Of a stretch of DNA of 64,000 nt, positions 917 through 22,643 are shown in pieces. Numbering within the stretch: position 1 is the stretch's first letter; each line of letters begins with the position of its first letter. The stretch lies in the NCBI RefSeq assembly GCF_002944315.1, contig NZ_CP024314.1, positions 1,240,001-1,304,000 on the forward strand. The letters run 5' to 3'. Below the pieces are notes generated by a model that saw nothing but the letters and a program-made list of their open reading frames with translations, was not told where the DNA came from and did not search any database. The translations under genes and the position numbers were made by a program. The DNA is from Rhizobium sp. NXC24. GTDB taxonomy: Bacteria; Pseudomonadota; Alphaproteobacteria; Rhizobiales; Rhizobiaceae.

Positions 917-941
917 GGAACCTATGCGCGCGGAGGCGGTT
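917..941 (+). promoter_or_regulatory. EcfG/RpoE2-type promoter for the alpha-glucosidase
   Basis: GGAAC (917-921) and GTT (939-941) are separated by 17 bases, matching the known alphaproteobacterial general-stress sigma consensus. The alpha-glucosidase start is about 80 bases downstream. Confidence 0.7.
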
Positions 942-1022
942 GTGCCTAACCTATACCGTCGAGGCGCCAAGATGGCGCCAGAGAAAGGGCGCGGCTTGCC
1001 GCGATAATCCGGAGAGGCTCCC

Positions 1023-2729
1023 ATGACCGCCAAACCAGCCACCAAATGGTGGCATGCCAAGACGGCCTATCAGATCTATCCACGCAGCTTCTTCGACAGC
1101 AACGGAGATGGCATCGGCGACATTCCAGGCATAACCTCCCGGCTCGATTATCTCCAGTCCCTCGGAATCGGATTGATCTGGCTTTCGCCGATTTATAAGT
1201 CGCCGATGGACGACAACGGCTATGATATCTCCGACTATCAGGATATCGCGTCGGAGTTCGGAACACTTGCGGATTTCGATGAGCTGCTTGCCGAAGCACG
1301 CAAGCGCGAGATCGGCATCATCCTCGATCTTGTCGTCAATCACACGTCCGATGAGCACCCCTGGTTCCTCGATGCCCGCGCATCCAAGGACAGCCCATAC
1401 CGCGATTTCTATATCTGGCGTTCTCCCAACGAAGACGGCAATCTCCCAAACGACCTTCTCTCCGTATTCGGAGGGCCTGCCTGGACGTTCGAGGCCGCGA
1501 CCGGCCAATATTATTTCCATCAATTCTCCCACCGGCAGCCGGATCTCAACTGGCACAATCCGAGCGTTCGGCAGGAAATCTACAAGATGATGAATTGGTG
1601 GCTGGACCGCGGCATCGCTGGCTTTCGTATGGACGTCATTGACCGCATCGCCAAGGACGTCGATCGCGCGATCACCGCCGACGGCCCATGTCTTCACGAC
1701 TACATTCAGGAGATACATCGAGAAACACTGAAGGACCGCGATGTCGTGACGGTCGGCGAAGCATGGAGCGCAACCCCCGGCTCGGCTCTCTTATATTCCG
1801 GGGCACAGCGTGGGGAATTGTCCATGGTCTTCCAGTTCGAGCACGTCCTCCAACAGTGGGATAAAGTCTATGGCAAATGGCGGCCACAGCCGTTCGATCT
1901 CGTCGGCCTGAAAGCGGTCCTCAGCAAATGGCAATATGCACTCTCGGATGATGGGTGGAATTCCCTCTTCTGGGGCAATCACGATCTGCCGCGTGCCGTC
2001 TCGACCTATGGCGACGCTACGGGTTACCATCGGGAATCCGCGACGATGTTGGCAACTGCCCTGCATTTCCTGAAAGGCACGCCCTTCGTGTATCAGGGCG
2101 AAGAAATCGGCATGACCAACGCCACCTTCACATCTATCGATCAATACAGAGATATCGAAACTCTCAATATGCATCGCCTGCATGTAGAAGCAGGTCTTTC
2201 GTCGGAGGAATTCATCGCTGTCGCCAATCGGAATGCACGCGACAATGCCCGTACCCCCATGCAATGGAGCACGGCGCCGCATGGTGGCTTCACCACAGGC
2301 GTTCCGTGGATACAGACAAATCCCAATTTCAGCCGCATCAATGCGGCACAGAGTATGGGTGACGACCGCTCGATCTGGAATTACTACCGGCGGCTGATTG
2401 CGCTGCGAGCCAAGCATCCGGTCATCGTCTACGGCACCTATCAATCCTATTTCGATCAGCACCCGCAGGTCTTCGCCTATACAAGGAAATTCGAGCACCA
2501 GTGCGTGATCGTGCTCGCAAACTTCTCCGTGGAGACCGTAATGCTGCCTCTTTCCGATGAATTGCAAGTGGAGGGTCAATGCTTGATCGCCAACTATCAG
2601 CCCGTAAGCCGGCTGCAAGAGACGGTCGAACTAAAGCCATACGAGACCTTGGCGATCCTTCATACGATCGAGGCGCCGAAGGAAAACACTTCCGAGGCTT
2701 CGGCCGGAAAAACACGACAGGACGCATAA
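1023..2729 (+). CDS. GH13 alpha-glucosidase (oligo-1,6-glucosidase type)
   Basis: A 568-residue cytoplasmic GH13 glycosidase that would hydrolyse alpha-glucosidic bonds of short oligosaccharides or disaccharides. All four GH13 regions are visible: DLVVNH near residue 103, GFRMD with the nucleophile Asp near 204, VGEAW with the acid/base Glu near 246, and NHD near 320. The N-terminal YQIYPRSFFDSNGDGIGD signature is typical of alpha-glucosidase, oligo-1,6-glucosidase and trehalose-6-phosphate hydrolase. No signal peptide is seen. GGAGAGG sits five bases before the ATG. An EcfG-type promoter lies upstream, implying induction in general stress or stationary phase. The substrate (maltose, isomaltose, trehalose or sucrose type) is not determined. 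Confidence 0.9.
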   Translation: MTAKPATKWWHAKTAYQIYPRSFFDSNGDGIGDIPGITSRLDYLQSLGIGLIWLSPIYKSPMDDNGYDISDYQDIASEFGTLADFDELLAEARKREIGIILDLVVNHTSDEHPWFLDARASKDSPYRDFYIWRSPNEDGNLPNDLLSVFGGPAWTFEAATGQYYFHQFSHRQPDLNWHNPSVRQEIYKMMNWWLDRGIAGFRMDVIDRIAKDVDRAITADGPCLHDYIQEIHRETLKDRDVVTVGEAWSATPGSALLYSGAQRGELSMVFQFEHVLQQWDKVYGKWRPQPFDLVGLKAVLSKWQYALSDDGWNSLFWGNHDLPRAVSTYGDATGYHRESATMLATALHFLKGTPFVYQGEEIGMTNATFTSIDQYRDIETLNMHRLHVEAGLSSEEFIAVANRNARDNARTPMQWSTAPHGGFTTGVPWIQTNPNFSRINAAQSMGDDRSIWNYYRRLIALRAKHPVIVYGTYQSYFDQHPQVFAYTRKFEHQCVIVLANFSVETVMLPLSDELQVEGQCLIANYQPVSRLQETVELKPYETLAILHTIEAPKENTSEASAGKTRQDA

Positions 2730-2767
2730 CCTGCCCATCTTGAGGAGCTTGGATCGAGGAGCATCCG

Positions 2768-2977
2768 ATGAAGAATATGGCTCAGGAACTCGCAAATGAA
2801 TATCTTCGCCTCGGCGGACGAAGACTGCTGGTGATGGACGACAATGTTCTTTCGACCCAAATCTGGGAAGCCGATCCGCCTGAGGCGGACACATTCTGGA
2901 AGCAGAAGATAGATCCCCTGCCCCAGAGACAGCGTAATGAAGTGATGTCGTTTCTACCGTCAATCAATGTCACCTAA
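2768..2977 (+). CDS. Small hypothetical protein (69 aa)
   Basis: The start is supported by GAGGAG a few bases before the ATG, and the gene lies only 38 bases after the alpha-glucosidase, so it is probably co-transcribed. The product is a soluble 69-residue protein rich in charged residues and Leu, without a signal peptide, membrane segment or motif that I recognise. Its function is unknown. The same-strand position suggests membership of the stress-induced glycosidase operon. Confidence 0.55.
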   Translation: MKNMAQELANEYLRLGGRRLLVMDDNVLSTQIWEADPPEADTFWKQKIDPLPQRQRNEVMSFLPSINVT

Positions 2978-3201
2978 AAGGACGAAGTCCGTCCTGTGGC
3001 GTGGCGCCATCAAAACGAAGCATTTGTGCGGATCAGCCGCCGCCCATTTTCTTAGGATCGTGGCTATGATGACTGTCACGCTCGCCTCCGCCGCCAGAAA
3101 TCTTGCTGCGGCTGCGGCGGTCGGGTTCGGCCGGACCGGCCGGCAGCATCCTTCATGCTAACTCGACCGAAAGCGCGATGTTCCACGGCGCGTTAGACCG
3201 C

Positions 3202-3357
3202 TTACGGGCCCTTCGGCGATGTCGCTCTCCCTGCGCCGGGAACGGGTGCGCCTGGATGAATGTTGACGGCAAAATAAGCGGCGATACAGCAGGCAATAAT
3301 GAAGATCGCGGCGACGAAAATCATCATGCGGTGTCGGGCTTGCGGCTGACGGTCCAT
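3202..3357 (-). CDS. Small single-pass membrane protein (51 aa)
   Basis: The start was set at an internal Met because GGAGGGG lies directly upstream of it; the longer open frame has no ribosome site. The product has a short basic N-terminus, one hydrophobic segment (about residues 12-31, MIFVAAIFIIACCIAAYFAV) and a Pro/Gly-rich tail. It is probably a small inner-membrane protein. An EcfG-type promoter lies about 90 bases upstream on the same strand, divergent from the promoter of the next gene, so it is probably a stress-induced small protein. No function can be named. Confidence 0.6.
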   Translation of the reverse strand: MDRQPQARHRMMIFVAAIFIIACCIAAYFAVNIHPGAPVPGAGRATSPKGP

Positions 3358-3446
3358 TTCCCCTCCACGGAAGGGTTTCATTGGCGGATGCACCGCGGAC
3401 AGGTTACCTGCCGCACGTCGGAGCGAACGCATCAGACGCAGGGTCA

Positions 3447-3471
3447 AACCTCGTCCTGTCGATAATGTTCC
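3447..3471 (-). promoter_or_regulatory. EcfG/RpoE2-type promoter for the small membrane protein
   Basis: On the minus strand GGAAC (3471-3467) is followed after 17 bases by GTT ending at 3447. It reads toward the 51-residue membrane protein. Confidence 0.65.
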
Positions 3472-3514: not shown

Positions 3515-3540
3515 GGAACCGGCGTCGTTATTCAAGAGTT
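3515..3540 (+). promoter_or_regulatory. EcfG/RpoE2-type promoter (18-base spacer)
   Basis: GGAAC (3515-3519) and GTT (3538-3540) are separated by 18 bases, one more than at the other sites. The site reads toward the gene starting at 3604 and is divergent from the promoter at 3447-3471. Confidence 0.6.
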
Positions 3541-3858: not shown

Positions 3859-3883
3859 TGAACCTTTTTATCTCTCATTTGTT
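3859..3883 (+). promoter_or_regulatory. Near-consensus EcfG-type promoter (TGAAC)
   Basis: TGAAC (3859-3863), 17 bases, then GTT (3881-3883). One mismatch from GGAAC. It lies about 75 bases before the methyltransferase/esterase fusion start. Confidence 0.45.
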
Positions 3884-3955: not shown

Positions 3956-5938
3956 GTGACTCTTTCACGAGCACGCGACAATATGGTCGAGTATCAACTT
4001 CAACGAAGAGGCATTACGGACCGAACTGTTACGAAAGCGATGAGGACCGTGCCCCGCGAAGTTTTCGTCAACCCAGGGTTCGAGGAATTCGCTTACGAGG
4101 ACACGCCGCTTGCGATCGACGAGGGCCAGACGATCTCCCAACCCTTCATCGTCGCTCTGATGATCGAGAAGGCCGATATCGAGCCGAATGACAGGGTGCT
4201 GGAGGTTGGCACCGGATCGGGCTATGCGGCGGCGGTGATGAGCCGGATCGCCAGGCACGTCTATACAATCGAGCGGCATGCCGCGCTTGCAGAGGAAGCA
4301 AAGCAGCGCTTCCAGCGACTTGGATATCGCAACATCGAGATGCGCGTCGCGGATGGATCAAAGGGATGGCCCAAGGCGGCGCCGTTCGATGCCATCGTCG
4401 TGACGGCCGGCGGCCCATCGGTGCCGCAATCCCTGAAGGATCAACTGGATCTCGGTGGCCGGCTGATCATTCCTGTCGGCGGGGAAAGCGAGCAGCGGCT
4501 CCTGCGCATCACCCGCACCGGTGCGGACATTTTCGAGGAAGATGATCTTGGCGGCGTGCGGTTCGTGCCGCTTATCGGTGCCGAGGGATGGACGGCGGAG
4601 CACTCTCTCTACACGCGCGCCAGGGCTGAAAAGCCTGTCAAAGAGCTCAGCCTTCCCGAGCTCATCGCGAAGGTTGCGGAGGACCTGCCGCCGATCGAAG
4701 ATCCAGCATTCGGCAAATTATTCGACCGCTATGGCGACCGGCGCGTTGTTTTGCTCGGAGAGGCAACACACGGCACGTCGGAATTTTATCAGGCAAGGGC
4801 CGCCATTGCGCGCCACCTGATAGAACATCACGGCTTCAATATCGTCGCAGTGGAAGCGGACTGGCCGGATGCCGCAGCCGTCGATCGCTATATTCGCCAG
4901 CGTTCGGGGCAGAACACAGCAGAAATTTTCAGGCGCTTTCCGAGTTGGATGTGGCGAAATGCCGAGTTCAGTGCATTTGTCGCGTGGATGCGCGAATTCA
5001 ATGGCCGAAAAGCTGACCTACGCCAGCAGACCGCCTTTTACGGTCTCGACCTCTACAATATGAGCGGCTCCGTCGCGACCGTCCTGAAATACCTTGATAA
5101 AACGGATCCCGATGCCGCTGCCGTCGCGCGCGAACGATATGGCTGCCTGACGCCATGGCAAAACGATCCCGCGACCTATGGCCGTGCCGCGCTGACCGCC
5201 GGCTACAAGACATGCGAGGAGGCGGTGCTTCAACAGTGCCGCGATCTCCTCCAGCACCAGTTGACCGAAGGCGCTGATGGCGACGAGTTCCTCGACGCCG
5301 CACAAAGCGCAAAGCTGCTGGCATCGGCGGAGCGCTACTACCGCATCATGTATTATGGCGGCCGGCACGCCTGGAATCTCAGAGACAGCTATATGGCCGA
5401 AACCCTGGAACATCTTCTGGGCGCCCGTGGTCCGGATGCCAAAGCCGTGGTCTGGGCTCATAATTCCCATATAGGCGATGCCCGCCATAGCGACATGGGA
5501 ACGGTGCATGAAGAGGTGAACCTCGGCGAACTCTGCCGCCAGAGGTTCGACGGAGAGACCGCCCTTATCGGTTTGGGCACGCATGATGGTCAAGTGGCTG
5601 CATCCAGCGATTGGGACGGCGAGATGGAGATCAAGAATATCGCTCCGTCTTTGAGCGACAGTTATGAGCGTCTATGCCACGACTCCCGCAAACCCAACTT
5701 CCTGCTCGACTTCGACCGTGATCAAATCCTTCACGACCGGCTCGTCGAACAGCGTCTCGAACGTTTCATCGGCGCGATCTACCGGCCGGAAACGGAGCGT
5801 ATGAGCCACTACATGTTCGGATCGCTTTCGCAACAATATGATGCCTTCGTATGGTTCGATCGCACGCATCCGATAAAGCCGCTCCACCGCGATTCTGATA
5901 CCGAAGGGATGCCGGAAACTTTTCCATTTGGCCTGTAA
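3956..5938 (+). CDS. Protein-L-isoaspartate O-methyltransferase / erythromycin esterase fusion
   Basis: A two-domain protein of 660 residues. Residues 1 to about 205 are a PCMT-type SAM methyltransferase that would repair isoaspartyl residues; the SAM motif VLEVGTGSGY is near residue 82. Residues about 245-650 are an erythromycin-esterase family domain, with GEATHGTSEFYQAR near 267 and HNSHIGDARH near 501 carrying the family's Glu and His residues. The GTG at 3956 is chosen because GGAGG lies eight bases upstream; the ATG at 3941 has no ribosome site. No signal peptide is seen. A near-consensus stress promoter precedes it. The esterase substrate is unknown, and macrolide resistance should not be assumed. 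Confidence 0.88.
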   Translation: MTLSRARDNMVEYQLQRRGITDRTVTKAMRTVPREVFVNPGFEEFAYEDTPLAIDEGQTISQPFIVALMIEKADIEPNDRVLEVGTGSGYAAAVMSRIARHVYTIERHAALAEEAKQRFQRLGYRNIEMRVADGSKGWPKAAPFDAIVVTAGGPSVPQSLKDQLDLGGRLIIPVGGESEQRLLRITRTGADIFEEDDLGGVRFVPLIGAEGWTAEHSLYTRARAEKPVKELSLPELIAKVAEDLPPIEDPAFGKLFDRYGDRRVVLLGEATHGTSEFYQARAAIARHLIEHHGFNIVAVEADWPDAAAVDRYIRQRSGQNTAEIFRRFPSWMWRNAEFSAFVAWMREFNGRKADLRQQTAFYGLDLYNMSGSVATVLKYLDKTDPDAAAVARERYGCLTPWQNDPATYGRAALTAGYKTCEEAVLQQCRDLLQHQLTEGADGDEFLDAAQSAKLLASAERYYRIMYYGGRHAWNLRDSYMAETLEHLLGARGPDAKAVVWAHNSHIGDARHSDMGTVHEEVNLGELCRQRFDGETALIGLGTHDGQVAASSDWDGEMEIKNIAPSLSDSYERLCHDSRKPNFLLDFDRDQILHDRLVEQRLERFIGAIYRPETERMSHYMFGSLSQQYDAFVWFDRTHPIKPLHRDSDTEGMPETFPFGL

Positions 5939-7784: not shown

Positions 7785-7809
7785 GGAACACATCTCAGTC
7801 CGGTTTGTT
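7785..7809 (+). promoter_or_regulatory. EcfG/RpoE2-type promoter for inositol-phosphate synthase
   Basis: GGAAC (7785-7789) and GTT (7807-7809) with a 17-base spacer, about 33 bases before the synthase start. Confidence 0.7.
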
Positions 7810-7841: not shown

Positions 7842-8945
7842 ATGCATACGCAACCGATCCGCGTCGGCCTTGTAGGTGTCGGCAATTGCGCGTCGTCCCT
7901 TGTGCAGGGTTTGACCTACTATCGAAATGTTCAGGATAACGAGCCGGTTCCCGGCCTCATGCATGTCAAGCTGGGGGGCTACCACGTGCGCGACGTCGAG
8001 ATATGTGCGGCCTTCGATGTCGCAGCCTCGAAGGTGGGGCGCGACGTCGCGGAGGCGATTTATGCCAAGCCTAATAATACCAAGCGCTTTGCCGATGTCG
8101 CGGCTACTGGCGTTGAAGTCCGTCGCGGCAACACGCTCGACGGCATAGGACGATATCTGGAAGGTGAAATCCCGCAATCGCCGGAACCGGTGGCCGATGT
8201 CGCGAATGTCCTGCGTGAGGCGCGCACGGATGTGATGGTGTCCTATCTTCCGGTCGGCTCCGAAGAGGCCACCAAATGGTATGCCGAACAGGCGCTCGCA
8301 GCCGGCTGCGCCTTCATCAATTGCATCCCCGTGTTCATTGTTTCGAAAAGCGAATGGCAGCGCAGGTTTTCCGAACGCGGCCTGCCGATCATCGGCGATG
8401 ACATCAAGAGCCAGGTCGGTGCGACCATCGTCCACCGGATGCTCGTCAATCTTTTTCGCGAGCGCGGCGTTAAGATCGACCGAACCTATCAGTTGAACTT
8501 CGGAGGCAACACAGATTTTCTGAACATGCTGGAACGGGAACGATTGGAATCGAAAAAGATCTCCAAGACGCAGTCGGTTACCAGCCAGCTCGACGTTCCG
8601 CTTGCCGCCGAAGACATCCATGTCGGCCCCAGCGATCATGTGCCATGGCTGACGGACAGGAAATGGGCCTACATCCGGCTCGAGGGCACGACATTCGGCG
8701 GCGTGCCGCTCAATGCGGAGCTTAAGCTGGAGGTATGGGATTCGCCCAACTCCGCCGGGGTCGTCATCGATGCGATACGCTGCGCGAAACTGGCGCTCGA
8801 TCGCGGCATCGGCGGCCCCTTGATTGGCCCATCCAGTTATTTCATGAAGTCACCCCCGCAACAATTCACCGACCATGAAGCGCGCCGACGCACGCAGGCC
8901 TTCATCGAAGATCGGGAGGATGTCCTGCGCGGAGCGGCGGAATGA
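7842..8945 (+). CDS. myo-Inositol-1-phosphate synthase family protein
   Basis: A 367-residue NAD-dependent enzyme that would convert glucose 6-phosphate to 1L-myo-inositol 1-phosphate. The Rossmann motif [13 protein letters not shown] is at the N-terminus, [11 protein letters not shown] lies mid-protein, and the C-terminal part has the family segment [13 protein letters not shown] followed by [14 protein letters not shown] and [14 protein letters not shown]. The length fits the short bacterial/archaeal class. The ATG at 7842 is preferred because GGAG sits six bases upstream; two in-frame ATGs lie just before it. It overlaps the next gene by four bases and is the first gene of an apparent three-gene stress operon. 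Confidence 0.85.
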
Positions 8946-9535
8946 CGGCAACGTTCTTCCTGGTGCGCCATGCCGCTCACGACGATGTCGGGAGCTTTCT
9001 TGCCGGTCGGATGGGGGGCGTCGTGCTGGGCGCGGCGGGACAGGCGCAAGCCGATCGCCTGGGACAGCGCATGAAACGCGAGAATGTCGAGGCAATTTAT
9101 ACCAGCCCGCGCGAACGCGCGCGGCAGACAGCGGCGGCCATTGCCGCCGCTTGCAATCTCGCCCCGCCGCAAATTTCAGACGCGCTGGACGAGGTGAATT
9201 TCGGCGAATGGACAGGAAAGACGTTCGATATCCTCAACGGCGACCCGCAATGGCGGCGCTGGAACAGCCTGCGCAGCCTCAGCCGCACGCCGGGTGGCGA
9301 AAGCATGCTTGATGTGCAGCAGCGCGTATTTGGTTTGATAGAAACCCTCGCAAATAACGGCAAAAGGCTGACATTGGTTTCGCACGGCGACGTCCTCAAG
9401 GCGGCAGTCTGCCATATCTTGGGTTTGCCTATCGACGCCTGGCCGAAATTCGATATTGCGCCAGCGTCCATTACCACCATGGCAGTCGGTGACTGGGGCG
9501 CGAAAATCATCACGCTCAATGAGATGAGCCCATGA
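8942..9535 (+). CDS. Histidine phosphatase family protein
   Basis: 197 residues of the phosphoglycerate-mutase-like histidine phosphatase superfamily. The catalytic motif is LVRHA near residue 8 (RHA rather than the more common RHG), with [12 protein letters not shown] near residue 55, FGEWTGKTF, and the second catalytic His in [10 protein letters not shown]. The start overlaps the synthase stop (ATGA), which indicates translational coupling. Given its position it could dephosphorylate the inositol phosphate made by the preceding enzyme, but other phosphorylated sugars are possible. No signal peptide, so cytoplasmic. Confidence 0.85.
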
Positions 9536-9557
9536 TCTTCTCAAGGTGGAGAAACCC

Positions 9558-10448
9558 ATGATCGAAGCGGCAATGATCTGGAACGAACCCAACAACAAGT
9601 CTCACTGGGATCCGGAAATAGACCCGGATTGGCGCCGTTTCGCCCATATGACGACCCTTGCTGCGGATGCCATCGCTATATCGAATCCGGATATCATCAA
9701 GGTTCTCGGCGGAATTTCGCCGATCGATTCCGGATTCATGGGGCGCATGAAGGACTACGGCGTGCTCGATCACATCGATGCGGTTGCCGTCCATGGTTTT
9801 CCGCTCGACTGGAATCTATGGCAGATCCATGAATGGCCGGAAAAGATCGATGAGATAAGAGCTGTGACCCATCTTCCGATTTGGGTCAGCGAGGTTGGCG
9901 TATCCAGTTTCGGCGCGGAAGAAGTGCAACTCTGGGGGCTGAAGCGTACCGCCGAGCTGCTGAAAGGAAAGGCGGCGCGATTGCAATGGTACAGCCTATA
10001 CGATCTTCCGCGATCATGGGAGGCAACGACCCGCCATCGCGAAGCCGAAGGCTCCTCGTATTACCGGCATTTTTACATGGGGATTTTACGCGAAGATGGC
10101 ACGCCGAAGCCGGCGCTTGAGGAATTTGCCAAGCAAACACCCGATTTCGGGCTCGTGCAGTGGTTCCACTTCGAGGATCCGCGGCTTGATGACGCTGTCT
10201 CCTGGATGAAACTGCTGGGCGTGCGGTCCGTGCGAACGGGCCTGTCCTGGGCGGACCGGTTCCGTCCAAATGCGCTCGATTGGTTCGATCGGCAAATGCG
10301 GTGCTTGGAGGATTTCGAAGTGACGGTGACCTTCTGTTTCACGCCCGAGCATAGAGGCATTGCTCCGCATCATACCAGCGCGCCTCTGATACCGGAGGAA
10401 TTTGCCGCGTTTTGCAGCGAAATGGTGGAGCGCTACGCGCCACGGTAG
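9558..10448 (+). CDS. Clan GH-A glycoside hydrolase (beta-xylosidase-like)
   Basis: 296 residues with the two catalytic Glu motifs of clan A glycosidases: WNEPNN near residue 10 (acid/base) and WVSEVGVSSF near residue 110 (nucleophile). The segment QWYSLYDLPRSW follows as in GH39-like beta-xylosidases. A second part (from about residue 200) begins with LVQWFHFEDPRLDDAVSWMKLLGVRSVRTGLSW, which looks like the start of another TIM-barrel-like domain, so the protein may be shortened or composite. The start is set by GGTGGAG before the ATG. No export signal. It closes the inositol-phosphate synthase operon; the glycoside it acts on is unknown. Confidence 0.7.
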   Translation: MIEAAMIWNEPNNKSHWDPEIDPDWRRFAHMTTLAADAIAISNPDIIKVLGGISPIDSGFMGRMKDYGVLDHIDAVAVHGFPLDWNLWQIHEWPEKIDEIRAVTHLPIWVSEVGVSSFGAEEVQLWGLKRTAELLKGKAARLQWYSLYDLPRSWEATTRHREAEGSSYYRHFYMGILREDGTPKPALEEFAKQTPDFGLVQWFHFEDPRLDDAVSWMKLLGVRSVRTGLSWADRFRPNALDWFDRQMRCLEDFEVTVTFCFTPEHRGIAPHHTSAPLIPEEFAAFCSEMVERYAPR

Positions 10449-13105: not shown

Positions 13106-13130
13106 AACCGAGCGATCATTCAATTGTTCC
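13106..13130 (-). promoter_or_regulatory. EcfG/RpoE2-type promoter for the pyruvyl transferase operon
   Basis: Minus-strand GGAAC (13130-13126), 17 bases, then GTT ending at 13106. It lies about 77 bases before the pyruvyl transferase start. Confidence 0.65.
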
Positions 13131-13203: not shown

Positions 13204-13938
13204 TCAATCGCCAAGGGCGATGTCAGCAATCAATGGAAGATGGTCGGAAGCCAGGCTCGTCAGGCGATTTCGAGGCACAGTCGTGCCAAGAACGGCAAGA
13301 TCGGTGCTGACGAAAATATGATCCAACCTCATCAGCGGATAACGCGAGGGAAAGGTCGGTCTCGCCGGCTGATCGCCGCAAAGTTGGGCGTCCTTCAATG
13401 TGCGTACGGCAAGCCGGTAGGCCGCGGAGGTCGGAACGGCGTTGAAATCCCCGCAGAGAATGGTCGAAGCAAGATCCTTGCCGATGCCCGGCAGCCATGC
13501 CGGCCCGAGAAGCGTCGTCATTTGCTGGACGCGATCGCGCCCCCGAAGGCCGAGATGGGTGTTGACGAAGTGCAACTGCCTGTTTCCCACCATGACTTCG
13601 ACCGAAAGCGCCCCGCGCGGTTCGCCCAGCGAAGGCAACGGCCCCGCCTTTATCGCCTTTGTCGGCAGGCTCGTTATGAGCGCATCTCCATATTGCTCCT
13701 CGGCTATCGTCAGGGCCGGATTGAAATGCGCCTCCATCTTCAGCAAGGAGGCGATCATGCTCGCCTGATCGACGCCGCCGGTTCTGTGGCGACGAACATC
13801 GATCTCCTGCAGCGCGACGATATCCGCCTGCGCCTCTGCGATAACAGCGGCAATCCGGCCAGGGTCGATCTTGCGATCCGTGCCGATGCAACTGTGCACG
13901 TTATAGGTCAGGATTCTAATCGGTCTTCCGTGGGGCAT
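13204..13938 (-). CDS. ybhP: Endonuclease/exonuclease/phosphatase family protein (YbhP-like)
   Basis: 244 residues covering a complete EEP domain: RILTYNVHSCIG at the N-terminus, ALQEIDV, HFVNTHLGLRGRDR, ILCGDFNAVP, RLDHIFV and SDHLPLIADI supply the metal-binding and catalytic residues in the usual order. In E. coli the homologous ybhP lies in an operon with clsB (ybhO) and ybhN; all three partners occur here side by side but in different orientations. The ATG is only about nine bases from the minus-strand promoter -10 element, so the transcript may be leaderless. It may act on a phospholipid-derived or nucleic acid substrate; this is not known. Confidence 0.82.
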   Translation of the reverse strand: MPHGRPIRILTYNVHSCIGTDRKIDPGRIAAVIAEAQADIVALQEIDVRRHRTGGVDQASMIASLLKMEAHFNPALTIAEEQYGDALITSLPTKAIKAGPLPSLGEPRGALSVEVMVGNRQLHFVNTHLGLRGRDRVQQMTTLLGPAWLPGIGKDLASTILCGDFNAVPTSAAYRLAVRTLKDAQLCGDQPARPTFPSRYPLMRLDHIFVSTDLAVLGTTVPRNRLTSLASDHLPLIADIALGD

Positions 13939-13944: not shown

Positions 13945-13969
13945 GGAACACCGAACTCGCCCGATCGTT
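13945..13969 (+). promoter_or_regulatory. EcfG/RpoE2-type promoter for the YbhN-like gene
   Basis: GGAAC (13945-13949) and GTT (13967-13969), spacer 17, with CGTT as the extended -10. It shares its bases with an opposite promoter. Confidence 0.75.
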
Positions 13970-13971
13970 CC
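13947..13971 (-). promoter_or_regulatory. EcfG/RpoE2-type promoter for the YbhP-like gene, overlapping the opposite promoter
   Basis: Minus-strand GGAAC (13971-13967), 17 bases, GTT ending at 13947. The -35 of each strand contains the -10 of the other. Confidence 0.7.
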
Positions 13972-14015: not shown

Positions 14016-15008
14016 ATGACGTTAAAAAGCCTGATTTGGAATGGCCTGCTCATCGCAGCGACATGCCTTGCGTTCTGGCTCCTATATCGCATCCTCCATC
14101 ATTACAGCTTGGATGATATCAGGAACTCGCTGCTGAGCATTCCGCTCCGGCGTCTCTGCTTGGCGCTTCTCTGCGCGGCGGCCTCTTATCTTTGTCTGAC
14201 CGGTTTCGATCTTCTTGCCATCTTGTCGCTCCGCAAGTCTTTGCCTTATCAGAAAATTGCGCTTGCCTCCTTCGTCAGCCTCTCCATGGGCCACAATATC
14301 GGCTTTGCCGGCCTCAGCAGCGGCGCCTTTCGATATCGCTTCTATTCACGCTGGGGCCTGAGCATCGAGGAAGTCACGAAGATAGTGCTTTTCTGCGGCG
14401 TGACGGTCGGTCTGGGAATGACCACGCTCGGCGGTATCGCATTGCTGGTCGATCCTGCGGATGCCGCAGGCCTGCTGCGGTCGAACACCCGGGACATCCG
14501 GACGGCAGGCGTCATCGTTCTTGCCGTTCCGGTTCTTTATACATTCCTCACCATGGTCTTGCGGCAAAGATTGAGCTTGTGGCGCTGGTCGTTCGAATTA
14601 CCCCGGCCTCACATAGCCTTGCTACAAATCGTCATGGGTACCTTGAATTTCGTCTGCGTCTCGGCGTGCCTGCACCAGTTGCTTTCGGCCTTCGCCGATG
14701 TTGCATTGTTCCGATCGATCACCGCTTACGTGCTGGCCAATACCGCCGTCATGGCGACCCATGTTCCTGGCGGCCTGGGCGTGATCGAGACAACCGTCTC
14801 CTATATCGTGCCGAATGCAGCCTCGATCGGGGCCTTGATCGCCTTTCGCTGCATCTACTTCCTGATCCCCCTCATCCTGGGAACGAGCCTTCTGATCGCC
14901 AGCGAACTGGCCTTTCGGCATCGCTCAGCTCGAACGAAGGATTCGGCGGAGGCGGCCGACAAGACGACGAGAACCCAGGTGCGCCAGCGGACGGGCGGGA
15001 TCGAATAG
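14016..15008 (+). CDS. ybhN: YbhN/UPF0104 lysylphosphatidylglycerol synthase-type membrane protein
   Basis: 330 residues with about eight hydrophobic segments starting at residue 5 (LIWNGLLIAATCLAFWLLY). The features SMGHNIGFAGLSSGAFRYRFY near residue 90 and THVPGGLGVIETTV near 248 are typical of the UPF0104/YbhN and MprF flippase-like membrane family. It would sit in the inner membrane and may move or modify lipids. AAGGA precedes the ATG. Its 3' end overlaps the convergent phospholipase D gene by 84 bases. Expression is predicted from the bidirectional stress promoter shared with the YbhP-like gene. Confidence 0.82.
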   Translation: MTLKSLIWNGLLIAATCLAFWLLYRILHHYSLDDIRNSLLSIPLRRLCLALLCAAASYLCLTGFDLLAILSLRKSLPYQKIALASFVSLSMGHNIGFAGLSSGAFRYRFYSRWGLSIEEVTKIVLFCGVTVGLGMTTLGGIALLVDPADAAGLLRSNTRDIRTAGVIVLAVPVLYTFLTMVLRQRLSLWRWSFELPRPHIALLQIVMGTLNFVCVSACLHQLLSAFADVALFRSITAYVLANTAVMATHVPGGLGVIETTVSYIVPNAASIGALIAFRCIYFLIPLILGTSLLIASELAFRHRSARTKDSAEAADKTTRTQVRQRTGGIE

Positions 15009-16346
15009 CGCGGTCCCAGCAATCGGCCCTGTCTTTTGGCAAGTCGTCGCCAACGGCTTGAGGCAGCGGGCTCCGACATTCAGCTCAGCGATCGCGCTGA
15101 TAAGCGATCCGCTCCGTTGAAAGGCATTTCGAACGGCGCCGGCAGCACAGCCGAGATATTCCGCTACGAGCGTGTTGCGCAGCTCATCGATCGCCAGACG
15201 GTGAGTGGGCTTATGTGCCTGAAAGAGAATATCGCATTCGGTGTCGAGCCCCTCGGACCGATGGTTGAGATTGGAGGAACCGATGCGGAGCAGACTATCG
15301 TCGGCGATCAGAAGCTTCGAGTGAACGAGCAGTTCGACCTGCTTTTCGCCATCGGGGACCACCGGATAGAAGACGCGCAGCCGACCGTAGCGATCCGCAT
15401 CCATAAGGCGCCGGACTATTCTGTCCCGGTTCTTTCCCATTATAAAGTTCTCGATCAAGCCATGGGATTTGCGCGTACAGATGATGACGACCTCCGGCCC
15501 GTCGTCTTCCTGCAGGCGAGCGGCAATGGCTTCGGCGACATTGAACGAGGCAAGGTATTGCGTTTCGATATAGAGCTGACGTCTCGCCTTGGCGATCACG
15601 TCTTTTGTCACCGCAATTCCCTGACGCAGGCCGCGCCTGAAGAAGGTCACCGGTTCCGTTATCGCAAGTCTGACCGGCACATTTTCAAGCGACGCGGCGA
15701 GATCGTCCGGCCAGTCAACAGTCGTCGGCGCCGGCAAGGCTCTGTGTTCCTCGCCGGTGGCATCCATCCATCGCCGCCTCGCAACGGAGGCGATGAGCCT
15801 GGCCGCATCGCCCGTGACCATGGTTTGCAGGTCGTGAAGCGGTTCGTAAAACACGCCTTCCGGATCGCGCTTCAGCTTGTCGCGCACCCTGTGGACCCAC
15901 GTGTCCCAGCGCCGCGACGTCAGGTCGATTCCCCCGATGAAGGCGACGGAATCGTCGATGCAGACAAGTTTCTGATGGTGACATCCTCGAATGGCGGATT
16001 GAATGGCAAAGCGCAGGTCGATGCGATCGCTCTTCGGAAAATTTATCTTGCGCAACACCTTTAAGGATTTTTCCGAATAAATCGGTCCCAAGGCCCAGAT
16101 CAAAATTCGAACCTCAAGATCGGGATTAGCCTCTGCTAAGGCATGCAGAAGATCACCGAGCGTTTCCTTGGAATTCTCCGGCTGCAGGCGGATATCGGGA
16201 TTGAAGTCCCATCCGATGATCCAGACCCGTTTCCGCGCACGGCGCAAAATGTGGGCCAACCGTGAGAAATAGGCACTACCGTTGATGAGGAAGGCCGTCC
16301 GTGCCGCAGTACCTTCCAACCGCATATCTTCGGCTTTCAGCGACAT
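14925..16346 (-). CDS. clsB: Phospholipase D family cardiolipin synthase-like protein (ClsB/YbhO-like)
   Basis: 473 residues with both HxKxxxxD motifs: HQKLVCID near residue 124 and HSKLLIAD near 340, the latter followed by GSSNLNHRS. These form the bilobed active site for phosphatidyl transfer, as in cardiolipin synthase ClsB. No N-terminal membrane helices are seen, fitting the ClsB class rather than ClsA. GAGGAG occurs before the start, but with long spacing. An EcfG-type promoter lies 80 bases upstream. The last 84 bases are antisense to the end of the YbhN-like gene. Substrate choice (phosphatidylglycerol, phosphatidylethanolamine or other) is unknown. Confidence 0.83.
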   Translation of the reverse strand: MSLKAEDMRLEGTAARTAFLINGSAYFSRLAHILRRARKRVWIIGWDFNPDIRLQPENSKETLGDLLHALAEANPDLEVRILIWALGPIYSEKSLKVLRKINFPKSDRIDLRFAIQSAIRGCHHQKLVCIDDSVAFIGGIDLTSRRWDTWVHRVRDKLKRDPEGVFYEPLHDLQTMVTGDAARLIASVARRRWMDATGEEHRALPAPTTVDWPDDLAASLENVPVRLAITEPVTFFRRGLRQGIAVTKDVIAKARRQLYIETQYLASFNVAEAIAARLQEDDGPEVVIICTRKSHGLIENFIMGKNRDRIVRRLMDADRYGRLRVFYPVVPDGEKQVELLVHSKLLIADDSLLRIGSSNLNHRSEGLDTECDILFQAHKPTHRLAIDELRNTLVAEYLGCAAGAVRNAFQRSGSLISAIAELNVGARCLKPLATTCQKTGPIAGTALFDPARPLAHLGSRRLVGRLRRILRSS

Positions 16347-16427: not shown

Positions 16428-16452
16428 AACGCCTGAATTTTCGCAAGGTTCC
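16428..16452 (-). promoter_or_regulatory. EcfG/RpoE2-type promoter for the ClsB-like gene
   Basis: Minus-strand GGAAC (16452-16448), 17 bases, GTT ending at 16428; the extended -10 is CGTT. Confidence 0.7.
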
Positions 16453-16494: not shown

Positions 16495-16519
16495 GGAACA
16501 AGTCGCCAGCCGCGCAGTT
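16495..16519 (+). promoter_or_regulatory. EcfG/RpoE2-type promoter for the DUF72 gene
   Basis: GGAAC (16495-16499), 17 bases, GTT (16517-16519). The ATG at 16528 is only nine bases beyond, so transcription would start at or beside the start codon. Confidence 0.65.
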
Positions 16520-16527: not shown

Positions 16528-17448
16528 ATGGCAAAGACAGGTACGATCCGCATCGGTATCTCGGGCTGGACTTACGCCCCCTGGCGCGGCGTCTTCTATC
16601 CGGGGGATGTGGCGCAGAAGCGCGAATTGGCCTATGCCTCGCGGCAATTCCCCTCCATCGAAATCAATGGGACCTTCTACGGCCTGCAGCGCCCCGACGT
16701 CTTTGCAAAGTGGCGCGATGAGACGCCCGACGATTTCGTCTTTGCGGTAAAAGGCTCCCGCTACATCACCCATTTGCGCCGGCTTCGCGATGTCGAAACC
16801 CCGCTCGCCAATTTCATCGCATCCGGCGTGCTGCGTCTGGGAGCAAAGCTCGGACCGATCCTCTGGCAGTTTCCAGCGCGACAGCGTTTCGATCCCGATC
16901 TTTTTTCCACTTTCATGAAAATCCTGCCGAAAGACACAGCCGCCGCAGCAAAGCTTGCCGGGCGACACGACGAACGGCTGAACGGTCGGGATTGGCTGAA
17001 GGCCGACGGCGAAAGACCCATCCGCCACGCATTCGAAATCCGCCACGAGAGCTTCGTCGACGCGAATTTCATCGACCTGCTTCGCGAGCATGATATCGGG
17101 CTCGTTTGCGCCGACACGGTCGACTGGCCGCTGCTGATGGATGTGACAGCTGATTTCGTCTATTGCCGTCTCCACGGCTCTGAAGAGCTTTACGTCAGTG
17201 GCTATGATGACAAGGCGCTGGATATCTGGGCTGAAAGAATCGATGACTGGGCACATGGTCGCGAGCCGACAAACGCAAACCGCGTGCTCAAGCCGCTGAA
17301 GCCGGCGCGCAATGGCTGTGACGTCTATGTTTATTTCGATAACGACGTAAAAGTACGAGCGCCCGCGGACGCCCACGCGCTTGCCGCACGGCTTGGCTTG
17401 GCAGATCCCGCAACGGCCAAAAGACGCTCAAAATTGGCTGTGGCTTAA
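16528..17448 (+). CDS. DUF72 (YecE-like) protein
   Basis: 306 residues of the DUF72 TIM-barrel family: IRIGISGWTYAPWRGVFYP at the N-terminus, EINGTFYGLQRPDVFAKW, DFVFAVKGSRYITHLRRL, LGPILWQFPA, and VYFDNDVKVRAPADA near the end. The biochemical role of the family is not established. The start at 16528 matches the normal N-terminus of the family; the open frame extends 82 codons further upstream, but the stress promoter lies inside that extension. There is no separate ribosome site, consistent with a leaderless message. Confidence 0.82.
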   Translation: MAKTGTIRIGISGWTYAPWRGVFYPGDVAQKRELAYASRQFPSIEINGTFYGLQRPDVFAKWRDETPDDFVFAVKGSRYITHLRRLRDVETPLANFIASGVLRLGAKLGPILWQFPARQRFDPDLFSTFMKILPKDTAAAAKLAGRHDERLNGRDWLKADGERPIRHAFEIRHESFVDANFIDLLREHDIGLVCADTVDWPLLMDVTADFVYCRLHGSEELYVSGYDDKALDIWAERIDDWAHGREPTNANRVLKPLKPARNGCDVYVYFDNDVKVRAPADAHALAARLGLADPATAKRRSKLAVA

Positions 17449-18802: not shown

Positions 18803-19399
18803 AAATTTACTCCCGCTTGTTCGGCCAAGCGCAAACAGCTCCGGTTGGCGAAAAGGCATGCCTGAAACAGTCGTGGTCGCCGGCCCAACACAGGCGACGC
18901 CTGAACAGATCGGTTGGTGTTAAAGAAATCATGCCGAGTATGCCTAAAACGGAAAGCTTTACTCTTCTCGCTACGGTCACTTTGCGCTCCGTGGTAAAGC
19001 ACTTGCCCGCCGATCAGTGGATCTTCTTAACGGCCGACAAAGATGCGCTTAGAGAAGCCGGGAAAAGCAAAATAGTTCCACGAGGTACTCTCAGATCGAA
19101 TATGTCTTGAAGACCCTGAAATTATAACACAATCCATAACTCTCCGTTTCATGAAATGAACGACTTTTTTTAAATTATATACAAATATTTCGAATATAAT
19201 TCTCCATTATTTTCAATAACAGTGGGTATACTTCCGAGAATTACCAGGATGCTTACGACAAACTCCAGGCCCGTCGCAGTAGCGCTATGTGATGATTGAT
19301 ATCACGGCCTCATTGTTCAGATGCTTGTCGCCGGACAAGACCTCCTGAGGAACCTTCCCACCCGTTGGTAGTTAGGGACTCTATCGATCAACGGAGGTT
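18803..19399. other. Long intergenic region, AT-rich in its middle
   Basis: Between the divergent NRAMP-like and DUF1236 genes. Bases about 19,120-19,230 are strikingly AT-rich and include a TTTCATGAAA palindrome (19147-19156). A 60-codon open frame (18931-19110) has no ribosome site and is not called as a gene. The promoter of the DUF1236 gene lies at the right end. Confidence 0.5.
19349..19373 (+). promoter_or_regulatory. EcfG/RpoE2-type promoter for the DUF1236 gene
   Basis: GGAAC (19349-19353), 17 bases, GTT (19371-19373), about 27 bases before the start codon. Confidence 0.7.
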
Positions 19400-19687
19400 A
19401 TGATGAAAAGGATACTCATTGCCGTGAGTGCGGCCCTCTTCGCGTCTGGAACAGCTTTTGCTCAAAGCACGACGGTGGTTGTTCCCGGAGAAGTCAGGAC
19501 GTATGTGACCGAACAAGAAGTTCCATCGGTAACTTATGACGGCGATATTGTAGTCGGTAGCGAATTGCCGAGTTCGGTGGAAGTACATACCATTCCCAGC
19601 AACAGCGACTACGCCTATACGGTCGTCAATAAAAAGCGTGTGATCGTAAGCCAAAAGACTCATAAGATTGTCGAAGTCGTCAAATAG
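19400..19687 (+). CDS. DUF1236 family exported protein
   Basis: 95 residues beginning with a clear Sec signal peptide (MMKRILIAVSAALFASGTAFAQ, cleavage after AFA likely), followed by the DUF1236 pattern: TYVTEQEVPSVTYDGDIVVGSELP, HTIPSNSDYAYTVVNKKRVIV and a closing HKIVEVV. The family is common in Rhizobiales, usually periplasmic, and has no assigned activity. GGAGG lies just upstream; either of two adjacent ATGs could be used. A stress promoter precedes it and a strong terminator follows. Confidence 0.85.
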   Translation: MMKRILIAVSAALFASGTAFAQSTTVVVPGEVRTYVTEQEVPSVTYDGDIVVGSELPSSVEVHTIPSNSDYAYTVVNKKRVIVSQKTHKIVEVVK

Positions 19688-20056: not shown

Positions 20057-20091
20057 AACAGTCTCCTGAATGGTCCACTTGTTCTAGTGGC

Positions 20092-20108: not shown

Positions 20109-20160
20109 CCACGCTCAACGCCGCGATCAGCGGCGCAAATCGCCGAAGGACCGGCAACGC

Positions 20161-20180: not shown

Positions 20181-20181
20181 A

Positions 20182-20451: not shown

Positions 20452-20482
20452 CTGCACCTCCTGGCATCACCGGGAGCCGTCC

Positions 20483-21340
20483 CTACAGGATCGGCTTGCC
20501 ACCCGTCACGGCGACGGTGGTCCCGGAGACGTAGCTCGACAGCGGATCGGCAAGCATAACGTAGGTCGTGGCGAGTTCGGCGGGCTGGCCCGGCCGCTTC
20601 ATCGGCACCTGCTTTCCGAAATTCTCAACCGCCTCCTTGGGCATGGTCGAAGGAATGAGCGGCGTCCAGATCGGGCCTGGCGCCACGGCATTGGCGCGGA
20701 TCCCTTTCTCAGCAAGCAGTTGCGCAAGACCCGCGGTGAAGTTTTGAATGGCGCCCTTGGTCGTGGCATAGGCAAGCAAGGTGGGATTGGGATTGTCCGA
20801 ATTGATCGAAGCAGTGTTGATGATGGCGCTGCCGGGTGTCATATGCGGAACGGCGGCCTTGGTCAGATAAAACATGGCGTGAATGTTGACCTTGAAGGTC
20901 AGTTCCCATTCCTGGTCGCTGATATCGCCGATGTCGTGAAAGCTTGCCTGGTGGGCGGCATTGTTGACGAGAATATCAATCCCGCCGAGTTGCGCGACCG
21001 CCTTGTCGACGATTGCCCGGCAATGCTGCGGATCCTGAATGTCGCCGGGAACGAGAACGGCCTTGCGTCCCGCATCTTCCACCCAGCGGCGGGTCTCCTC
21101 GGCGTCATCGTCTTCATCCAGATAGGCAATGAGAACATCGGCGCCTTCACGCGCAAAGGCGATCGCAACGGCACGGCCGATGCCGCTGTCGCCGCCGGTG
21201 ATGATCGCTTTCTTGCCGATAAGCCGGCCCGATCCTCGATAGGACTTTTCGCCATGATCCGGCACCGGTCGCATGGCCGCGGTATGGCCGGGCATCGGCT
21301 GCTGTTGCGACGGGAATGGGGGCGTTGGATGGGTGGCCAT
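20483..21340 (-). CDS. SDR family oxidoreductase (YghA-like)
   Basis: 285 residues of the long YghA/GsiB-like short-chain dehydrogenase group. About 40 Pro-rich residues precede the Rossmann fold. The cofactor motif TGGDSGIGR is near residue 48; NNAAHQ, a Ser in NTASINS, and YATTKGA supply the catalytic Asn, Ser, Tyr and Lys. The C-terminus has SSYVSGTTVAVTGG. It would reduce an aldehyde or oxidise an alcohol with NAD(P). GGAGG precedes the ATG. This class is frequently under general-stress control, matching the EcfG-type promoter 36 bases upstream. Confidence 0.88.
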   Translation of the reverse strand: MATHPTPPFPSQQQPMPGHTAAMRPVPDHGEKSYRGSGRLIGKKAIITGGDSGIGRAVAIAFAREGADVLIAYLDEDDDAEETRRWVEDAGRKAVLVPGDIQDPQHCRAIVDKAVAQLGGIDILVNNAAHQASFHDIGDISDQEWELTFKVNIHAMFYLTKAAVPHMTPGSAIINTASINSDNPNPTLLAYATTKGAIQNFTAGLAQLLAEKGIRANAVAPGPIWTPLIPSTMPKEAVENFGKQVPMKRPGQPAELATTYVMLADPLSSYVSGTTVAVTGGKPIL

Positions 21341-21375
21341 GGCTTCCTCCTTGGTATCGGTGAACTCCCATTCTC

Positions 21376-21400
21376 AACCACCTGCCCCTCGCTTGGTTCC
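21376..21400 (-). promoter_or_regulatory. EcfG/RpoE2-type promoter for the YghA-like dehydrogenase
   Basis: Minus-strand GGAAC (21400-21396), 17 bases, GTT ending at 21376. Confidence 0.7.
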
Positions 21401-21452
21401 CGAAAAGAGCAAAATCAGCCAGGAACTGACGGAGATGACGCTGTCATTTCGA

Positions 21453-21477
21453 GGAACCTTCGCGTCCCACTGCAGTT
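21453..21477 (+). promoter_or_regulatory. EcfG/RpoE2-type promoter for the PPC-domain gene
   Basis: GGAAC (21453-21457), 17 bases, GTT (21475-21477). It overlaps the start of a dehydrogenase gene remnant. Confidence 0.65.
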
Positions 21478-21548
21478 TCGTAACCGGCGCCAATATTGCA
21501 GTCGACGGAGGCGTATCCGTCTCGAATGGACAACCCGGCCAGGGATAG
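21471..21548 (+). pseudogene. C-terminal remnant of a short-chain dehydrogenase
   Basis: In the plus-strand frame ending at 21548 the translation reads FVTGANIAVDGGVSVSNG, the normal C-terminal strand of an SDR enzyme. The upstream sequence in this frame does not look like SDR protein. It is best read as a decayed dehydrogenase tail between two intact stress genes. Confidence 0.5.
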
Positions 21549-21561
21549 CGAGGCCATAGCC

Positions 21562-21999
21562 ATGAATTTCAAACAGATCAACGAAACGGACGGTCAGCGC
21601 ACCTATGTCGTGGTGCTCGATGCGAAGGAAGAAGCATTCTCCACCCTCAGAAACTTCGCCACGACCTATGAAATGACGGCCGCGTCGGTTACCGCGATCG
21701 GCGCCTTCGAAAGAGCGACCGTCGGCTGGTTCGATTTCCCCAGCCGCAGCTACCGCAAGATTCAGGTCGCGGAGCAATGCGAAGTCTTAAGCCTTCTCGG
21801 CGATATCGCGACCGGCGACGACGGCAAGGCGAGCCTGCATCTTCATGCCGTTCTCGGCCTAAAAGACGGCTCCACGCGCGGCGGTCACTTCATTGACGGC
21901 ATCGTACATCCGACTTTGGAAGTGACAATCATCGAGACGCCCGCATACCTGCACCGCCGGCATCACGAGGATCTCGGAATGTCCCTCATCGAGCTCTGA
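21562..21999 (+). CDS. PPC/DUF296 domain protein
   Basis: 145 residues forming one PPC (plants and prokaryotes conserved) domain, formerly DUF296. Visible are the TYVVVLDAKEEAFSTLRNFA opening, SVTAIGAFERATVGWFD, and HLHAVLGLKDGSTRGGHFIDGIVHPTLEV, where the His residues form the family's metal site. Bacterial members form trimers; in plants the domain accompanies AT-hooks, but DNA binding is not shown for the stand-alone form. The internal ATG at 21562 is chosen with a GAGG upstream. Its stress promoter overlaps the dehydrogenase remnant. Confidence 0.82.
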   Translation: MNFKQINETDGQRTYVVVLDAKEEAFSTLRNFATTYEMTAASVTAIGAFERATVGWFDFPSRSYRKIQVAEQCEVLSLLGDIATGDDGKASLHLHAVLGLKDGSTRGGHFIDGIVHPTLEVTIIETPAYLHRRHHEDLGMSLIEL

Positions 22000-22142
22000 G
22001 CCGACATTGTGTTTGGTCAATTCTCACGCCCGACTGATCAGATGGTATACGGCTCGAACGTCGCTGCTCGATGGACGAGATCACAAGCGATAGAGAACGT
22101 GAGCACCAGCCTCAAGAGACCGGGATGGAAATTGGCTGGCGC

Positions 22143-22517
22143 TCAGCCTATCCCGTGGTGGCCGCCTGCCATGCGCATGGCGCCGGCGCGGCGCAGGACA
22201 TTGGCGACATCCTCATCGATGAACGGCTTTGCTATCGCCGCAAAGGCGCCGGCGAAGCCGTGCTTGAGCGCTTCGGGAACGCCAGTGACGAAGATAATCG
22301 TCGTATGGTACCGATCGATTAGTCTGCGGGCGAGTTGTAAGCCGCTCCTCCCGTCGGAGAGAGCCACATCAATCAAGGCTATATCCGCTCTCGGCGCGTA
22401 GGCAAGCGCTTGCTCCATTGTGGAAGCCGGACCGAGCGTGGCGAAACCGGCATCGGCCACTATCGTCTTGAGCTGATGAGCAACGATCGCCTCGTCTTCT
22501 ACAATCAGTACTTTCAT
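22143..22517 (-). CDS. Single-domain response regulator
   Basis: 124 residues, only a receiver domain. The acidic pair is in VEDEA near residue 7, the phosphoacceptor Asp in IALIDVAL near residue 54, Thr in IIFVTGVP, and the conserved Lys in AIAKPF near residue 104. GGAGGAG precedes the ATG; a much longer upstream frame is not credible. There is no output domain, so it probably acts in a phosphorelay or by protein contact. Stand-alone receivers take part in the alphaproteobacterial general stress response, and this gene is divergent from a gene with an EcfG-type promoter, but the link is inferred. Confidence 0.85.
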   Translation of the reverse strand: MKVLIVEDEAIVAHQLKTIVADAGFATLGPASTMEQALAYAPRADIALIDVALSDGRSGLQLARRLIDRYHTTIIFVTGVPEALKHGFAGAFAAIAKPFIDEDVANVLRRAGAMRMAGGHHGIG

Positions 22518-22618
22518 ATTCGCTCTCCTCCTATATCTAAGATCTAGGTGGGGGGCGTTAGTATTTCTATCATTTGGATAGATTTTTCGATGGCGGCAAT
22601 TGCTTTTAGTCATCGCCG

Positions 22619-22643
22619 GGAACAGCGGATTTCCGTCAGAGTT
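22619..22643 (+). promoter_or_regulatory. EcfG/RpoE2-type promoter for the DUF2934 gene
   Basis: GGAAC (22619-22623), 17 bases, GTT (22641-22643), 26 bases before the start codon. Confidence 0.65.

Follow-up and report, generated by a model that had tools for sequence, protein, structure and literature searches.

Why should so many promoter-like sites of one type stand side by side on one replicon, when sigma-factor regulons are normally thought to be scattered? The question is raised by a window of 64,000 nucleotides (C4:1240001-1304000) of the 7.30-Mb genome of Rhizobium sp. NXC24, in which an initial annotation had described a 22-kb island (window positions 917-22643) packed with general-stress promoters of the EcfG/RpoE2 type. 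The genome comprises four contigs: C1 (4.16 Mb), which carries phyR, nepR and ecfG1; C2 (271 kb); C3 (489 kb); and the secondary replicon C4 (2.38 Mb). The answer that we consider likely is that this block makes up the right-hand half of a larger general-stress-response island, 53 kb long, on the secondary replicon of an R. tropici-group Rhizobium, in which the sigma factor EcfG1 would drive ecfG2, a sigma gene inside the island, and EcfG2 would in turn act on the promoters of its neighbours.

The sites in question have the form GGAAC-spacer-GTT. All 13 sites of the initial annotation are present at their positions and on their strands, 12 with a spacer of 17 bases (N17) and one, at 3515, with 18 (N18), and two more were found. 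The block contains 13 N17 and 2 N18 sites against 0-2 at each other spacing from N8 to N27, which bears out the constant spacing noted earlier. In the window as a whole, there are 17 matches at N16-N18 against 4.05 expected from dinucleotide shuffles (largest of 100 shuffles, 10), and no GGAAC-GTT pair at N17 or N18 lies in its last 41.3 kb. The 256 exact N17 sites of the genome, all listed by means of three patterns differing in the first base of the spacer, are distributed as 100 on C1, 20 on C2, 17 on C3 and 119 on C4. The block is the densest 21.7-kb stretch of the genome: its 13 sites compare with 0.76 predicted by the genome-wide average, and when 256 sites were placed uniformly on the genome in 2000 trials, the maximum per 21.7 kb was 9.

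The extent of the island needs correction. The proposed 22 kb stands as the densest stretch, but the cluster continues to the left of the window and covers C4:1209763-1262643, with 27 N17 sites in 52.9 kb against 1.85 expected and a random maximum of 12 in the 2000 trials. The sequence around the 256 sites was classified with genes from a simple home-made codon-usage caller, and a site was termed promoter-positioned if a called start on the same strand lay no more than 400 bp downstream. In the 53-kb cluster, 23 of 27 sites are promoter-positioned, four are intergenic without such a start and none lies in a called gene, in agreement with the annotated position of the sites upstream of genes; nearly every gene or small operon in the island stands behind a predicted EcfG-type (ECF15) promoter. 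The N17 sites of C1 are divided into 42 promoter-positioned, 10 intergenic and 48 within called genes, and never exceed four per 21.7 kb; C1 has no dense cluster and holds a scattered set of likely real sites amid many chance ones, so the annotation's contrast with scattered regulons was apt. Smaller clumps are located at C4:682657-695225 (9 sites), C4:751702-786907 (13), C4:1588059-1602714 (7), C2:7511-26854 (10) and C2:150872-168741 (8).

The simplest alternative, that chance or base composition produced the cluster, could draw on the lack of genome-wide enrichment of the bare pattern (256 sites against 283 for its reversal). It is already refuted by the spacing spectrum, and we give it practically no weight: enrichment appears at N17 and N18 only, in the island and around 80 related sigma genes described below, none of the 27 sites is coding, 2000 random placements fall far short, and the G+C content of the block is ordinary and even. 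Spacing controls, random placement and the absence of coding sites together rule it out.

A sigma gene of the appropriate kind lies within the cluster, about 12 kb to the left of the window. EcfG2, a protein of 167 amino acids (gene, C4:1227500-1228003(-); match to the EcfG1 query, C4:1227473-1227979(-)), is 42% identical to EcfG1 (E 6.5e-34) and is the genome's second-best match after EcfG1 itself. EcfG1 is encoded at C1:2975905-2976453, adjoining nepR, phyR and a kinase gene; for this family of systems, it is established that PhyR releases EcfG1 from NepR under stress. EcfG2 is located on the secondary replicon without an adjacent nepR-phyR pair; the only NepR match in the genome is on C1, and none was found near EcfG2 at E <= 1. 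A 111-protein tree recovers EcfG1 as a single clade (support 95/97) and places 86 EcfG2-like rows on one side with weak support (52/88), the p42f and pSymB rows being long-branched. The arrangement suggests physical linkage between a regulon and its sigma factor. In addition, the island contains a broken second EcfG2-like gene (C4:1235065-1235307(-)) interrupted by one inner TGA, one TAG and one TAA, and a remnant of 84 amino acids resembling it is found near ecfG2 in CB3060 and CB3171.

The linkage recurs elsewhere. Among the best 80 of 457 relatives from a scan of GTDB genomes (52-87% identity; loci totalling 1.57 Mb), there are 465 N17 and 210 N18 sites, against 27-56 at each other spacing from N12 to N23, and 77 of the 80 loci have an N17 site. 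Between 9 kb upstream of the sigma gene and 3 kb downstream of it, sites occur at 0.36-1.16 per kb, except for 0.19 in the upstream kb farthest from the gene; farther downstream the density is lower (0.10-0.35), and controls lie at 0.03-0.09. The result does not depend on fixing the -10 element: of 856 promoter-positioned GGAAC sequences near ecfG2, 372 are followed by GTT at N17 and 160 at N18, where chance would give about 10.5 in either case, and 50 are followed by ATT at N17 (about 7 expected). In 50-kb stretches of complete plasmids, the N17 plus N18 counts are 14+1 for R. etli p42f, 13+4 for Sinorhizobium meliloti pSymB, 19+3 for CB3060, 15+5 for CB3171, 11+5 for CB3090 and 7+6 for R. 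tropici CIAT 899, with 0-3 at other spacings in these six. The pSymB site at 1371947(-) is letter-identical to the published RpoE2-responsive SMb21442 promoter. On pRtrCIAT899c of R. tropici CIAT 899, an identical 26-base N18 promoter-like sequence occurs at 2039080, 2039433 and 2040621, within 1.6 kb.

PhyR was found in one of the 80 loci. NepR was not found when they were searched as a pool, and a weak match appeared in three when they were searched locus by locus. These matches (L049, L067, L071) have 32-35% identity over 32-34 amino acids and are on the strand opposite to the ecfG2-like gene, some 640-920 bp upstream of it; they recall an unannotated open reading frame (ORF) of anti-sigma-like character beside S. 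meliloti rpoE5 (PMC6180224).

The genes of these neighbourhoods are shared in part only. When 635 promoter-driven proteins from 92 stretches were grouped by single linkage, the groups shared with the island included DUF2934-type (38 stretches; a possibly mixed group), DUF892 (35), inositol-1-phosphate synthase (19), DUF1236 (9), endonuclease-family, LPG-synthase-type and phospholipase D-like (6 each) and PCC-domain (5). Another group, with 21 stretches, is putatively Ku-like. This partial overlap around EcfG2-like genes of several genera bears on the proposal of a classical mobile genomic island with stress promoters carried along as passengers, to which the block's location on a secondary replicon and the alignment of related plasmids with at most 50% of the window's block lend some colour. 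We regard that proposal as very improbable: no tRNA gene was found either in the window or over 40 kb on its left side, G+C is even (integrases were not searched for), and recurrence of the arrangement in several genera with partly overlapping families is better explained by accretion of genes around the sigma factor than by transfer of one block.

The base preceding the -10 triplet may bear on which sigma factor reads the island. The published EcfG1/RpoE4 motif is GGAAC-N16-CGTT (PMC3892343), and in the 29 loci closest to EcfG1 of this genome (taken from the 119 of 120 genomes with a match), C precedes GTT in 57 of the 58 promoter-positioned sites of the EcfG1 operon and in 86 of all 103 non-coding sites; 27 further N18 sites, within genes, have A. 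In the 53-kb cluster, all 27 N17 sites have the -35 element GGAAC, as the search pattern itself required, and C precedes GTT in only four, so that the canonical CGTT is mostly absent. Annotation of the sites as EcfG/RpoE2-type promoters was accordingly right as to class, but with C lacking in most of them their reader may be EcfG2 instead of, or together with, the canonical factor. Within this genome, C is present in 23 of the 42 promoter-positioned sites of C1 and in 12 of the 23 sites that belong to the three remaining C4 clusters, against 6 of 42 in the 53-kb cluster and the two C2 clusters combined, three coding sites being left out (p 2e-4 versus C1).

The promoter of ecfG2 itself differs from those around it. 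In a zone of up to 450 bp before the gene, GGAAC-N17/18-RTT (R being G or A, a choice made after the ATT enrichment at N17 had been seen) is present in 75 of the 80 loci, with off-spacing controls at 0-2 of 80. C precedes the triplet in 75 of 79 such sites against 169 of 547 other promoter-positioned sites (p 2e-29; 165 coding or start-less sites left out), and in 38 of 42 against 152 of 520 if GTT alone is counted; the C-ATT form is found upstream of 38 of the 80 genes. Before ecfG2 of the genome studied here, C-GTT lies 201 bp and A-GTT 417 bp upstream. Two promoter classes coexist in the same neighbourhoods.

These observations are combined in the following mechanism. Under stress, the chromosomal PhyR-NepR-EcfG1 switch would set EcfG1 free, which would then read promoters with C before the -10 triplet, that of ecfG2 among them; EcfG2 would in turn read neighbouring promoters at which the base before the triplet is free, perhaps jointly with EcfG1. 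The clustering of the sites, their spacing and position before genes, the internal sigma gene, the recurrence and the two promoter classes are observed directly; the activity of the sites, the control of ecfG2 by EcfG1 and the reading of the remaining promoters by EcfG2 are inferred. The first step is consistent with findings in S. meliloti, where rpoE5 responds to RpoE2 and its mapped promoter has the C-ATT form (PMC6180224).

The main rival accepts the island but lets canonical EcfG1 alone read all its promoters, the non-C ones more weakly, and reduces ecfG2 to a minor or backup role. Support for it comes from Sphingopyxis, in which 14 different -10 boxes are recorded among 79 units, and both EcfG proteins use boxes other than CGTT, such as TGTT and CATT, though less well (PMC7083833); EcfG1 could by the same token read the island alone. 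In S. meliloti, overexpression of RpoE5 gave one putative target, despite a similar cluster around rpoE5, whereas RpoE2 affected 320 genes, and the mapped RpoE2-responsive promoter of SMb21442 belongs to the pSymB cluster (PMC6180224). That promoter, the only one matched in sequence, has C, however, and is no proof that RpoE2 reads non-C sites. In addition, the own promoter of ecfG2 retains C and the others of the same neighbourhoods do not, and in R. etli EcfG1 and EcfG2 each favoured its own promoter (PMC3892343).

A comparison of 120 genomes of the genus also tells against this rival. Non-C-GTT sites number 21.5 per Mb in the 82 genomes with an EcfG2-like gene (called at E <= 1e-38) and 16.7 per Mb in the 38 without (p 1.5e-8); for C-GTT sites the corresponding figures are 13.1 and 11.7 (p 0.002), kinship being ignored in both cases; reversed-pattern controls are equal in the two groups. 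The differences in density mean that EcfG2 is accompanied by about 30 extra non-C and about 10 extra C sites per genome. On balance, we judge reading by EcfG1 alone to be rather unlikely.

Several points weigh against the two-step cascade and keep our confidence in it short of firm. The contrast within the genome is modest, as 20 of the 48 chance sites that fall in C1 genes already show C, and the counts across genomes come from related genomes rather than from independent events. The near absence of targets for RpoE5 and the tolerance of Sphingopyxis EcfG proteins for non-CGTT boxes have been described above. For the EcfG2-dependent genes of R. etli, no motif was found, and only one of 19 units matched that of EcfG1 (PMC3892343). 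R. etli p42f has no C-RTT site before ecfG2, and R. etli ecfG2 was not directly activated by EcfG1 in Escherichia coli, yet its expression was halved in an ecfG1 mutant (PMC3892343); given the missing C-RTT site, the non-activation can itself be counted as fitting the first step. EcfG1 and EcfG2 of R. etli show redundancy (PMC3892343), and such redundancy could mask the second step, in which EcfG2 would read its neighbours.

A candidate determinant of altered recognition is found in a loop residue, which is N in all 29 EcfG1 proteins and R (53), K (20), S (11) or A (2) in the 86 EcfG2-like proteins, and which aligns without gaps to a position with N in Mycobacterium tuberculosis SigH (5zx2_F). 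In SigH, T76 and N77 bind the flipped T-9 (PMC6411747). The loop N would correspond to SigH N77, and T-9 to the second T of GTT. If this equation is right, the residue has no contact with the base before G and cannot alone explain the difference between promoters with and without C. When loci were grouped by loop residue, no clean split was seen at N17 (C in 55 of 199 sites for GTRLK and in 40 of 105 for GTKLK).

A bolder form of the cascade is put forward only tentatively, as a possibility somewhat short of even. EcfG2 may be a second general-stress sigma factor with a code of its own, GGAAC-N17/18-NGTT, in which C is not needed; it would govern a self-contained, linked stress island, made up of differing genes across Rhizobiales, which the chromosomal PhyR-NepR-EcfG1 system would activate by way of a C-RTT promoter. 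If true, this would fill a gap left by the R. etli work, namely the promoter pattern of EcfG2, which a 2021 review lists as "yet to be determined" (PMC8103513).

The promoters and genes of the block are as follows, in window coordinates; Pfam matches agree with the gene themes first proposed, namely glucoside and inositol metabolism, lipid and polysaccharide remodelling, protein repair and several families without known function. At the left end, an N17 site (917..941(+)) lies 82 bp before a gene for a GH13 alpha-glucosidase or phosphotrehalase-like protein (1023..2729(+); Pfam Alpha-amylase, E 4e-151; NCBIfam PRK10933 above and TIGR02403 below the cut-off). The two sites added to the earlier list follow: an intergenic N17 site (3160..3184(-)) with no called start on its strand within 400 bp, and an N18 site (3239(+)) over a small called ORF of the other strand. 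Another N17 site (3447..3471(-)) is located 90 bp before a small ORF resembling a membrane protein (3202-3357), and the N18 site at 3515..3540(+) is upstream of an ORF of 69 amino acids (3604-3813). The variant at 3859..3883(+) reads TGAAC-N17-GTT, as annotated, and precedes a gene for a fusion of protein-L-isoaspartate methyltransferase with an erythromycin-esterase-like protein (3956..5938(+); Pfam PCMT, Erythro_esteras). Between this gene and the next, an ORF of 583 amino acids (5948-7699(-)) matches nothing in Pfam or NCBIfam and is not preceded by any of the listed sites.

In the middle of the block, the N17 site at 7785..7809(+) lies 33 bp before the inositol-1-phosphate synthase gene, the first of a tandem (7842..10448(+)) continued by a histidine-phosphatase-family protein and, below the Pfam cut-off, a glycosyl-hydrolase-like protein. 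On the other strand, an N17 site at 13106..13130(-) is placed 101 bp before the polysaccharide pyruvyl transferase-like gene, which occupies 10464..13005(-) together with a gene for an FrhB/FdhB-type protein (both Pfam). Genes assigned by Pfam to an endonuclease/exonuclease/phosphatase-family protein (13204..13938(-)) and an LPG-synthase-TM-type membrane protein (14016..15008(+)) follow, and at 13945..13971, between two divergent genes, the palindrome GGAAC-N17-GTTCC is promoter-like on both strands. This palindromic site is also kept in the CB3060 and CB3171 plasmids, and the 80 EcfG2-like loci contain 16 palindromes of this kind with N17 and 5 with N18, compared with 1, 0 and 0 at N15, N16 and N19; bidirectional stress promoters may be common.

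Farther to the right, N17 sites are located 82 bp before a gene for a phospholipase D-like protein (site, 16428..16452(-); gene, 14925..16346(-); Pfam) and 9 bp before the called start of a DUF72 gene (16495..16519(+); 16528..17448(+); Pfam). Others stand 30 bp before a DUF1236 gene (19349..19373(+); 19403..19687(+); Pfam), 36 bp before an SDR oxidoreductase gene (21376..21400(-); 20483..21340(-); Pfam and NCBIfam) and 49 bp before a gene for a PCC-domain (DUF296-like) protein (21453..21477(+); 21526..21999(+); Pfam). The last, at 22619..22643(+), lies 26 bp before a DUF2934 gene (22669..23016(+); Pfam), which forms the right end of the island. Nramp and receiver proteins are also encoded in this part according to Pfam, and no known RNA family scored above its gathering score in window positions 1-23000.

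To the left of the window, profile matches identify DUF1236, Nramp, DUF892, a second DUF2934 and CheB-like proteins in the island, as well as a CheB-CheR-PAS-HWE kinase of 1157 amino acids and two single-domain receiver proteins, the second below the Pfam cut-off. The site cluster of plasmid C2 (1-20000) stands among look-alike genes, and its promoter at C2:15630 is nearly identical to that at C4:1225938, which would fit a transfer of a copied portion of the island from one replicon to the other. In the clump at C4:1588059-1602714, all seven sites are promoter-positioned and four have C before GTT; the genes behind them are putatively Ku-like and ligase-like.

The arrangement means that a large share of one predicted stress regulon adjoins a sigma-factor gene on a megaplasmid, and likewise near EcfG2-like genes in most of the 80 loci. 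It offers a direct route to predicting the roles of the many orphan EcfG2 paralogues in rhizobia, and whether the -10 recognition of a given paralogue has shifted could be tested specifically and at little cost. The arrangement would also account for the gain or loss of stress tolerance as a unit together with a replicon, a point of relevance to how legume inoculants survive in soil. Promoters of the EcfG type, paralogues of EcfG2 and cascades of sigma factors are already known; for the ecfG2-linked promoter cluster, its recurrence and the non-C promoter class, no description was found in the portion of the open-licence literature that was covered.

Three known systems are close to the one described here. 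The canonical sigma-EcfG response, represented by R. etli EcfG1/RpoE4 and S. meliloti RpoE2, has the same -35 element, spacing and TT, and its phyR, nepR, ecfG1 and kinase genes are present on this chromosome with C-GTT promoters; it differs in that its chromosomal sites are not clustered, whereas those of the island are clustered and mostly lack C. The nearest counterparts of EcfG2 are R. etli PF00052 on p42f, the type example of a non-canonical EcfG2 (PMC3892343), and S. meliloti RpoE5 (SMb21484) on pSymB (PMC6180224). EcfG2 is 54% identical to each and by similarity belongs to their subgroup, all three are encoded on secondary replicons away from phyR, and the p42f and pSymB neighbourhoods, with 14 and 13 N17 sites in 50 kb, resemble the island; unlike the role proposed for EcfG2, RpoE5 seems to have almost no targets (PMC6180224). 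In Sphingopyxis granuli, one sigma factor drives another within the general stress response, as proposed here, but there EcfG2 drives ecfG1, both factors share one motif with CGTT as the best -10 box, and no clustered regulon is reported in the accessible part of the study (PMC7083833).

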